A stretch of 43,112 bases of DNA, from positions 1 through 43,112 of the forward strand of contig JAACUG010000077.1 of assembly GCA_009993045.1 (NCBI GenBank), given 5' to 3'. Numbering within the stretch: position 1 is the first letter of the stretch; each line of letters opens with the position of its first letter. The notes beneath the pieces are model-generated. The model made no database searches, was not told where the DNA came from, and was given only the letters and a program-made list of their open reading frames with translations. The translations under genes were made by a program, and so were the position numbers. Positions 20,061 to 22,196 of this stretch are shown here, piece by piece. This stretch comes from Cyanobacteria bacterium CG_2015-22_32_23. Lineage in GTDB: Bacteria > Cyanobacteriota > Cyanobacteriia > Cyanobacteriales > Cyanobacteriaceae.

Positions 20061-21317
20061 TTAAATAACATCTTTTTCTCTAACTCCTGAAATAGCTGCT
20101 AAAATAATCCATCCTAAAATATTTAATCTTAAATCAAAAATGCTAACGTCGAATAAATTAAAGACAATAAAACTTAGAAAAACCATGAGATAACTAAATA
20201 AAATAATACCTTGATCTTGACTAGATTTAAAACTAATTAATGTCATAATTCCTTGCCATAAAATTTTACCAATAATAAACATCATCAACAATAAATTAAT
20301 TAAACCAGTTTCGGCACTAATCATTAAAAATAAGTTGTGAGGATGCCCTAAATAAGTTGCTGTTTTTTCTTCGTATAAAATGCTAAAATTCCTTAATCCC
20401 CAACCAAAAAAAGGGCGTTGTGTAATCAAATCTAAACAAAAATGCCACTGAGTTGTTCTTAAGGTTGGCAATGGACGATCAGGGTACATTTGATCTGATA
20501 ATCTTAGCCAAATAAAAGAAGGTACAATTTTTCTAAATAAATTTTGTGCGGGTAAGTTACCAAAAGAAGCCCAACTAATTATTACTCCTCCTAAAGTTAA
20601 AAGTTGTAAAATTAGATACCATCTTACATAAATAGCAAAACCAATAAAACTAATAAAAGTAATAATCCAACCATTACGAGAACTGGTTAAAATTAATCCC
20701 GTTAAGTTTATAATAATAGTAAAAATTAACCCTAAATCTATTTTATTAAACTTCGTTTTATGGTGTCTATAAATTAACAAAGCTACGGTAAAAATTAAGG
20801 CAGTAGTTAAATATAATGTCAAGGGATTAGCATGGGGAAAAACTGATGACATTCTACCTTCTGGAATACCATAAGCCATCAATCTCCATCCTGAAAGTTT
20901 AAAAAATAAATCAGGAGTTTGCCAACCTAATTTAACTTCTCCAATTCCTAAAAATACGATAATAACTGAGTTAAAAATAATCGGTAAAATTATAAAAAAT
21001 AGTTGATTATAATTAGTAATAATAGTTCTAATACCTAAAAACATGATAAAAAAAGGAAAAAAATGAATCATTCCTAACCATGCTTCACCAGAATTATGAG
21101 CAAAAATAGAGGAAATCATCATCAAAATAGTAACGGCAATTAGACTATAACTAAGATAGTTATTAATAATTACTTTATAGTTATTACGCCATGTTTTATA
21201 GGTTAAAAATAATAAGATAAGAATACCGAAAAATGTTTGAAATGGTAATATTAAAAGACTAATAAATAATAGTTTTAACTCAAAATTCTCAGAGGTGTTA
21301 TACTTTTTTAAAAACAT
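20061..21317 (-). CDS. O-antigen ligase / Wzy-like polysaccharide polymerase family protein
   Basis: A 418-aa protein with around ten hydrophobic helices. The large periplasmic loop contains the family-type motif GHPHNLFLMISAETG, with the conserved His, preceded by RPFFGWGLRNF. LTSSRNGW in the middle is also typical. Members join or polymerise lipid-linked glycans (WaaL or Wzy type); which one applies cannot be told. Its gene begins 19 bp after the transposase-derived membrane protein on the same strand, so the two are probably co-transcribed. Confidence 0.8.
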   Translation of the reverse strand: MFLKKYNTSENFELKLLFISLLILPFQTFFGILILLFLTYKTWRNNYKVIINNYLSYSLIAVTILMMISSIFAHNSGEAWLGMIHFFPFFIMFLGIRTIITNYNQLFFIILPIIFNSVIIVFLGIGEVKLGWQTPDLFFKLSGWRLMAYGIPEGRMSSVFPHANPLTLYLTTALIFTVALLIYRHHKTKFNKIDLGLIFTIIINLTGLILTSSRNGWIITFISFIGFAIYVRWYLILQLLTLGGVIISWASFGNLPAQNLFRKIVPSFIWLRLSDQMYPDRPLPTLRTTQWHFCLDLITQRPFFGWGLRNFSILYEEKTATYLGHPHNLFLMISAETGLINLLLMMFIIGKILWQGIMTLISFKSSQDQGIILFSYLMVFLSFIVFNLFDVSIFDLRLNILGWIILAAISGVREKDVI

Positions 21318-21336
21318 TTATTTGATGATAATATTA

Positions 21337-21933
21337 TCATGTAAAAGAATAATAATTAATGTGAAGATACGAAGTATTATTATTAAATTTAGGCGTTTGA
21401 TTATTTTTTTCTGCGTGTTTGGCTAACTGATTAAATACCAACATTCCGATGACAGATAATAAAATGATACTAACTAAACCTGTAAAAAAATTATTATTTT
21501 GAACTCTTATTTTTTGTCTTCTTGATAAGATTTTACTAGCAGTTATTTCAGGATTTTTAGAAATAGTTGTTTCAAAAAAAAATTTGGCTTTTTCTTTATT
21601 TCTTCCTCCAGTAATGATAAAATCTAAAGTATTTCCTTGAGCATCTAATGCCCGATATAAATATTTTTTTCTTCCTTGCAACTTAAATGGTATTTGCACT
21701 ATTCTCCAGCCTTTTCTACTCTTTCTTTCTGTTTCTCGAAATCTTTTGAGAGCTTTAGCTGAATATTCTTGTACTAAAAAGTTTATTGTGCGAGGATCAA
21801 TTTTGAAGCCTCTTTGTTGCATAATTATTTTTAATTGAGAATAACTTAGTCGCTCTGTTACATACCATTGAATACATAGTAAAATGATCTCATCTTTAAT
21901 TTGCTCCCAATGATCATGACTAGCATTCCTCAT
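21337..21933 (-). CDS. Truncated IS6-type transposase fused to a transmembrane tail (probably domesticated)
   Basis: The 198-aa product has the N-terminal half of an IS6/IS240-type transposase: DEIILLCIQWYVTERLSYSQ and a helix-turn-helix, then GWRIVQIPFKLQGRKKYLYR and ALDAQGNTLDFIITGGRNKE. In active enzymes the first catalytic Asp sits in a WRxDETY motif; here it is GWRIVQIPF, so that Asp is gone. The later D and E regions are replaced by a basic linker, one membrane helix (FTGLVSIILLSVIGMLVF, about 147-164) and a short Asn-rich tail. A Shine-Dalgarno GAGG precedes the ATG at 21933 (a TTG lies 6 bp further up). The open frame and operon position argue for a working protein, not debris. Confidence 0.75.
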   Translation of the reverse strand: MRNASHDHWEQIKDEIILLCIQWYVTERLSYSQLKIIMQQRGFKIDPRTINFLVQEYSAKALKRFRETERKSRKGWRIVQIPFKLQGRKKYLYRALDAQGNTLDFIITGGRNKEKAKFFFETTISKNPEITASKILSRRQKIRVQNNNFFTGLVSIILLSVIGMLVFNQLAKHAEKNNQTPKFNNNTSYLHINYYSFT

Positions 21934-22196
21934 GTTCAATTTACCTCATTGATGCGGTTTTTTTGCTCATTATATAACCCCTAATCATACCATAATTTTA
22001 GATTTATAAATTTTATTATCATAACCATTATCGATAAATTTACTTACCATTAATTATGATAATTAGTCAATTATATTGAAGAAGATAAAATACCTAAAAA
22101 AGTTCAAATTTAATTATTAATTATATCTTTATTCTCTGCTTAAAAAAGAAAATTATCAAGACATTGAATCTAAAGAAAAAACATAGCAAACATTAA

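Follow-up and report, generated by a model that had tools for sequence, protein, structure and literature searches.

ToxR and CadC are membrane-tethered one-component regulators with a cytoplasmic helix-turn-helix (HTH) domain, one transmembrane (TM) helix and an outside part, and RodZ has a similar plan of cytoplasmic HTH, one TM helix and periplasmic part, in an envelope role. TldR, which descends from TnpB, is a transposon-derived protein that has been kept for another use. It was reported to be an RNA-guided transcription factor (PMC13418256). The nearest relatives found for the protein described here are IS6-family transposases (IS26/IS240 type, such as those at our loci L016 and L018), with which it shares the HTH and, in the DDE core, the strands YLYRAxDxxGNTxDF.

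The window, by which we mean the whole stretch of 43,112 nucleotides that was analysed (Cyanobacteria bacterium CG_2015-22_32_23, contig JAACUG010000077.1), carries on its minus strand a gene for a 198-aa protein (21337..21933; ATG at 21933, stop at 21339-21337), a domesticated half of an IS6 transposase with a TM helix. We regard the product as very likely to be a conserved, domesticated membrane protein, the membrane part being inferred from sequence alone. Unlike IS6 transposases, proteins of this type have the first catalytic Asp replaced, the C-terminal half gone and a TM helix added, and the gene gives one match per genome of its family, with no element ends found. It fails the tests that define an IS6 transposase, namely the triad, the ends found and the cut-off score, and works at most like proteins of the ToxR or RodZ type. 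It differs from ToxR and CadC in that its HTH is of transposase descent and its outside part is a short, poorly conserved tail, from RodZ in its descent from IS6, and from TldR in being a one-pass membrane protein made from a DDE transposase. Neither Trans_reg_C nor the RodZ HTH or periplasmic domain families were among the four Pfam families listed for the window protein at E up to 1, a range in which the HMMER filters drop most matches above about 0.1. The open-access literature searched, which is incomplete (few subscription journals, no bioRxiv), held no description of a domesticated transposase as a membrane protein and, with the same limits of coverage, none of a gene of this type. The best match of the window gene is an IS6 transposase model, and such a gene is easily dismissed in annotation as mobile debris.

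Descent from an IS6 transposase and loss of catalytic residues

The original prediction had recognised the N-terminal half of an IS6 transposase with its HTH, had noted the loss of the first catalytic Asp, and had described the rest of the catalytic domain as giving way to a linker rich in basic residues, a single TM helix and a short tail. All three claims held. The window protein matches the NCBIfam IS6 transposase model NF033587 (E 2.6e-28, profile positions 3-120 of 202) with 99.1 bits, below the curated cut-off of 125, and Pfam DDE_Tnp_IS240 (E 1.2e-11, profile positions 3-56 of 139). The three-helix HTH part (aa 6-71; 21721..21918, minus strand), for which the evidence is the AlphaFold2 model, VIA-align and the charge, has predicted helices at aa 6-26, 31-40 and 47-71 and runs into a basic stretch at aa 60-76 with a net charge of +6. 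After it comes the beginning of the DDE (RNase H-like) core (aa 75-125; 21559..21711, minus strand), delimited by the Pfam match and the AlphaFold2 model, with predicted strands at 77-85, 88-96 and 102-108 and a helix at 113-124. In the alignment, codon 79 (21697..21699, minus strand) specifies Val where the first catalytic Asp (WRxDE) would stand, so that the window protein reads WRIVQIPF where transposases read WRVDETYI, and this Asp is Val or Ile in all 16 domesticated rows, that is, 14 orthologues within the family and two fusion proteins from relatives. The second-Asp region (vDK), which we take to be the place of the second Asp, and everything beyond it, including what we likewise take to be the place of the Glu, are replaced, leaving no catalytic DDE triad. 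Both the IS6 origin and the loss of catalytic residues are shown by the sequence. Because the first catalytic Asp is replaced and the remaining catalytic core is gone, no DNA cutting or joining is expected. In addition, the RW residues of IS6 helix 3 (as in TIYRWV) are x-L or x-I in the domesticated proteins, and binding to IS6 ends may therefore have been lost.

Structure prediction adds little to this. The AlphaFold2 model, made from an alignment of 13 rows, consists of three helices, three strands and a helix, with ten-residue pLDDT means of about 66-88 (73-88 for aa 11-70); the linker that follows is disordered, and the TM segment forms a helix. Overall confidence in the model is low (pLDDT 62.9, pTM 0.36). 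The best VIA-align row was a DeoR DNA-binding domain (Z 5.2); the ISCth4 transposase aligned with Z 3.7 and an rmsd of 1.8 over 42 residues, and retroviral integrase cores aligned at about model positions 75-131 with Z 3.1-4.2. Since the transposase and integrase rows are interspersed with unrelated ones, including rows whose Z equals that of the integrase cores and an AcrIF protein (Z 4.8), we take the structure as weak support only. These low, model-predicted values are merely consistent with the sequence result. Foldseek found no match in the PDB at E up to 0.001, the best being the ISCth4 transposase at 0.015, and the A2 profile gave no meaningful match against PDB sequences.

The IS6 end GGTTCTGTTGCAAA gave five matches in the window, each with three mismatches, against 4.64 expected, and none within 2 kb of the IS6-derived gene; this search used one consensus only, based on known IS6 ends and on those of loci analysed here. 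A catalysis-dead fragment that keeps a transposase HTH could be dominant negative, and it is thus conceivable that the protein is a silencer of IS6, whose HTH half competes with active IS6 transposases for element ends. We consider this very unlikely: no further IS6-like match at E up to 1 turns up in the genome that the window comes from, the 14 genomes of the family with the gene show this one match only at E up to 0.001, and a membrane anchor would not be expected of a silencer.

Further domesticated IS6 halves were sought among 20 more order-wide matches, which are only part of the order-wide list. As all 20 keep the Asp motif (RVDE or VDE, and WRVDK in L200), they are transposases or fragments of them. 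Four matches on viral contigs were likewise rejected as candidates, each having an MDE motif.

Conservation and selection

Conservation was examined in 60 genomes, 15 of them from the window's family, its own genome included. Exactly one match (E up to 0.001) was present in 14 of these 15, among them all 13 that are at least 90% complete; G005, the only family genome that lacks it, has a completeness of 67%. Four genera are represented among the carriers, and G005 represents a fifth. The 13 other orthologues are 46-70% identical to the window protein, with matches that reach into the tail, and in three genomes (G006, G012 and G013) the match extends one stop beyond the end of the frame, the frames being 186 aa long. 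In a sample of 386 genomes of the phylum, which has not been shown to include G031 and G040, the genomes of the fusion proteins described below, only seven members of the family scored below 1e-80, and the other matches (best 1.1e-41, in five genomes) are transposases or fragments as far as they were read.

Selection was estimated by the Nei-Gojobori method for eight near pairs chosen from the 91 possible. Over these pairs, dN/dS was 0.05-0.31 for the whole protein. By segment, the head (aa 1-128) gave 0.03-0.15, the linker 0.18-0.84, the TM helix region 0.03-0.80 and the tail 0.08-1.57. Selection is tight on the head, where purifying selection is shown, and there is hardly any on the tail.

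Predicted membrane helix and topology

A basic, probably disordered linker (aa 126-148; 21490..21558, minus strand; pLDDT below 50 at 127-153), with a net charge of +4 across the 20 residues preceding the TM segment, leads to the TM helix (aa 149-167; 21433..21489, minus strand; mean Kyte-Doolittle 2.55) and then to the short, by dN/dS poorly conserved outside tail (aa 168-198; 21340..21432, minus strand). The hydrophobic helix is shown at aa 147-170 in all 14 orthologues of the family (Kyte-Doolittle 2.1-3.3), and from residue 110 onward the best hydrophobic stretch of four transposases reached only 0.73. The N-terminal flank of the helix is more positive than the C-terminal flank in 16 of 16 proteins (the 14 orthologues and two fusions). 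One TM helix with the N-terminus inside is inferred from these features of the protein sequence. The basic stretch at aa 60-76 carries +6 to +8 in the window's family and only +1 in the lysozyme fusions, in which the TM helix is also weaker (Kyte-Doolittle 1.5 and 2.0).

Expression signals and gene neighbourhood

The frame is intact from ATG to stop, as had been predicted, and the good ribosome binding site that had been claimed was confirmed as GAGG (21944..21947, minus strand), starting 14 bases before the ATG. A similar site, GAGG or, in L008 and L009, AGGGG, lies 12-14 bases before the ATG in 9 of the 14 orthologues. An extended -10 promoter box, TGGTATGAT (21984..21992, minus strand), starts 59 bases before the ATG, and 13 of 14 orthologues (all but L003) have a TGnTATnAT box at a distance of 51-65 bases from the start codon, where 0.28 would be expected from shuffles. 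Conservation of this promoter-like box is shown by the sequence; the motif was, however, first spotted by eye and the genomes are related to each other, and the count is therefore a description and not a test.

Downstream, the next gene of a probable operon encodes a 418-aa O-antigen-ligase-like protein (Wzy_C; 20061..21317, minus strand; Pfam E 7e-15). The two genes are 19 bp apart, as originally stated without naming the strand, and both are on the minus strand. We infer that they are co-transcribed. The conserved gene pair is shown: of 13 assessable genomes in the family, 12 (the window's and 11 others) have the Wzy_C gene directly after the IS6-derived gene in the same orientation, at a gap of -20 to 140 bp as measured with mechanically assigned start codons. 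The exception is G009, where it lies on a different contig, and G014 could not be assessed because its contig ends. The Wzy_C gene itself is near-universal, with a match in 56 of the 60 genomes, and its adjacency to the IS6-derived gene was seen only inside the window's family. Outside it, a protein of about 280 aa (MDELR..LELAT..EL..LT; for example L173:554-1411) is encoded upstream of Wzy_C in 13 of 19 loci read (L168-L185 and L187). One example of this protein had no Pfam match at E up to 0.001. Given that its gene is still present elsewhere in the genome in 13 of 13 family genomes checked, the Wzy_C and IS6-derived genes must have been brought together within the family. A divergent ABC ATPase of about 237 aa neighbours the IS6-derived gene in 9 of the 14 family genomes (L098-L101, L104-L108), the window not being one of them.

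The gene thus meets the criteria of a host gene, namely one copy per genome, conservation by descent, purifying selection and a conserved neighbour. The competing explanation, that of a chance fusion in a decaying insertion sequence, has in its favour that the protein is a truncated transposase, but it is all but excluded by orthologues in four genera and in every near-complete genome (13/13), by the maintenance of the frame, the TM helix and the promoter-like box, by dN/dS well under 1, and by the absence from the window of IS6-like ends above chance. The original prediction, in suggesting a domesticated, membrane-tethered protein with a DNA-binding or structural role, possibly as a regulator, had named three checks: whether orthologues share the TM tail and the Asp loss, whether selection is purifying, and whether the O-antigen ligase is a conserved neighbour. 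Since all three came out positive (the second for the head, the third within the family), 'domesticated, membrane-tethered' is well supported, with the membrane part resting on sequence only; 'DNA-binding' or 'regulator' remains an inference from the retained HTH. The lysozyme proteins described below are new beyond that prediction.

Relatives with a lysozyme domain

In G031 and G040 (Gomphosphaeria), outside the window's family and each the sole sampled genome of its own, an IS6 half with a TM helix is fused to a lambda-type lysozyme domain (GH104, which we take to be the family name of the lambda endolysin R-type lysozymes). This fusion is shown by the sequence. The two proteins (L015 and L017) are about 360-380 aa long and have Val in place of the Asp; the C-terminal domain of L017 matches PDB 3d3d at 6e-17, L015 aligns with L017 over its length, and both keep an AWxEGT motif. 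In the AlphaFold2 model of the Gomphosphaeria fusion the lysozyme part is poor because no other alignment row covers it, and GH104 membership therefore rests on sequence. The likeness to the lambda endolysin R-type lysozymes (PDB 3d3d and 1am7) is confined to these C-terminal domains: the window protein, which ends about 30 residues past the TM helix, has no GH104 domain, and its genome has a separate TM-GH104 gene.

A tree of the heads (31 rows, 120 columns, the WRxDET columns left out) grouped the 14 family rows with a support of 96/97 and split these and the two fusions from 15 transposases with 90/96. The latter value is rated by the program as not shown and not rejected, and L015 and L017 are on long branches, for which a warning was issued. 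A single origin of all 16 domesticated heads is thus an inference with support that falls short of proof. The tree makes a loss of the lysozyme in the window's family probable, although a gain in the lineages of G031 and G040 is not excluded. A gene for an NAD-dependent epimerase (GalE-like by eye, with a Pfam match for L109) lies nearby downstream in G009; counting frames downstream, it is number four in G031 and number three in G040. In both G031 and G040 (L109, L110), a PPK2-type gene also follows the IS6-headed lysozyme gene. The shared epimerase and PPK2-type genes are compatible with one ancestral locus.

A second recombinase head

With the G031 fusion as query, 94 of 291 genomes of the order gave matches at E up to 1e-12, many of them GH104 proteins with different N-termini. 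At GH104 loci of other families (f2, f9 and f20), TM-GH104 is preceded by a tyrosine-recombinase core-binding domain, which is SAM-like. Such tyrosine-recombinase-headed TM-GH104 proteins were noted at L048, L050, L053, L056, L064-L068, L070 and L073-L076. Of the 10 heads, 7 had a Pfam Phage_int_SAM_4 match with an E-value no higher than 0.1, the best being 3.4e-8, although L053 is below the curated cut-off and the whole proteins of L050 and L048 are without such a match. A profile of the 10 heads, searched against 148 genomes of the order, gave 16 matches at E below 1e-34, several of them the profile's own rows, and all 16 are in frames with a GH104 match. From 5e-21 on, the four matches that were read all resemble full tyrosine recombinases, for which we take HxxRH..Y to be the signature. 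These heads had dN/dS of 0.15-0.40 in five pairs, a sixth being saturated. By sequence, two kinds of recombinase half thus stand before a TM helix and a wall hydrolase, and the window's family has the head alone. The two unrelated heads before TM-GH104 amount to a natural experiment on the purpose of the head.

Proposed function

Taken as a whole, a membrane-tethered DNA-binding head that serves the envelope seems to us the best explanation, by a modest margin, with both DNA binding and purpose inferred. In this view, a host gene arose from the N-terminal half of an IS6-family transposase, and what remains would be a cytoplasmic HTH with a partial RNase H-like core that a single helix anchors in the membrane. 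If the HTH still binds DNA, this would be a catalytically inert DNA-recognition module on the cytoplasmic side. The putative link to the envelope comes from the Wzy_C gene just downstream in Geminocystis and kin, from the lysozyme domain on such a head in Gomphosphaeria and one more lineage, and from the epimerase nearby, and we speculate that the head, by holding DNA at the membrane or by acting as a sensor there, contributes to envelope synthesis or turnover. Two observations favour this reading: a DNA module has been kept without its chemistry, and a second, unrelated recombinase head occupies the same place, which points to DNA binding as the shared property. Counting against it are the altered helix 3, the long branches of L015 and L017, the low charge at aa 60-76 and weaker TM helix of the lysozyme fusions, the poor confidence of the structure model, the confinement of the Wzy_C pairing to one family, and the f10 TM-GH104 proteins that lack a recombinase head. 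DNA binding itself, inferred from the retained HTH with no binding data, we rate at slightly below even odds, and whether the head would act in gene regulation, in holding the chromosome or in placing an enzyme cannot be discriminated by sequence.

The main rival, which remains possible, is a RodZ-like adaptor, in which the head binds a cytoplasmic partner rather than DNA, and the TM helix and tail bring it into a complex in the membrane that includes the O-antigen ligase or wall enzymes. RodZ combines an HTH, one TM helix and an outside part, and its HTH binds MreB. The altered helix 3 relative to IS6, the contrast between a strongly conserved head and an almost unconstrained tail, and the pairing of the gene with a membrane glycan enzyme are supportive of such an adaptor. 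However, no RodZ-type family appears among the Pfam families listed up to E 1, and the second, unrelated DNA-binding head before TM-GH104 is easier to explain through shared DNA binding.

Should the tethered head indeed bind DNA, it would connect the cyanobacterial chromosome with the envelope in a way that can be tested, and the finding suggests that parts of mobile DNA have been recycled into envelope machinery. A bolder reading, which we offer only as a possibility, is that cyanobacteria have at least twice made the DNA-binding halves of mobile-element recombinases, from an IS6 transposase in one lineage and a tyrosine recombinase in others, into cytoplasmic heads of membrane-anchored wall hydrolases, thereby physically tying wall cutting to chromosomal DNA, and that the lone head of the window's family, paired with an O-antigen-ligase-like gene, links DNA to outer-envelope assembly.

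Other TM-GH104 proteins

Four loci of f10 (L054, L061, L062 and L069) have only an Arg/Lys-rich N-terminus before TM-GH104 and no recombinase head; these proteins form a separate clade in the GH104 tree (100/99). That they manage with a short basic N-terminus and a TM helix would fit an anchoring plug, in which any folded cytoplasmic domain suffices, no specific partner is involved, and recombinase halves were taken for their abundance, transposase and recombinase genes being abundant in these genomes. We find this unlikely, as the head in the window's family would anchor only a poorly conserved tail and yet is itself the conserved part.

A separate TM-GH104 gene is present in 13 of the 15 genomes of the window's family, with two copies in G004 and G008. 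That of the window's genome is at G000:C113:18108-18305 (L092), with relatives at L081-L095 and L148-L153; the proteins, of about 220-300 aa as open frames, have ISxSES-like letters instead of AWxEGT. They belong to another, distinct cyanobacterial clade (100/100), which is also present in G031 and G040. The possibility that an ancestral IS6-head/TM-GH104 gene was split inside the window's family was rejected, because the separate TM-GH104 is an old paralogue that G031 and G040 also have. A swap of heads in place at one locus was not supported by comparison of the neighbours: besides GH104, the IS6-headed and tyrosine-recombinase-headed loci have only weak ABC-ATPase matches in common (25-31% identity). 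In the window's genome, an 8-kb contig (G000:C41, L212) carries an intact-looking tyrosine recombinase, the core-binding domain of which is related to the lysozyme heads.
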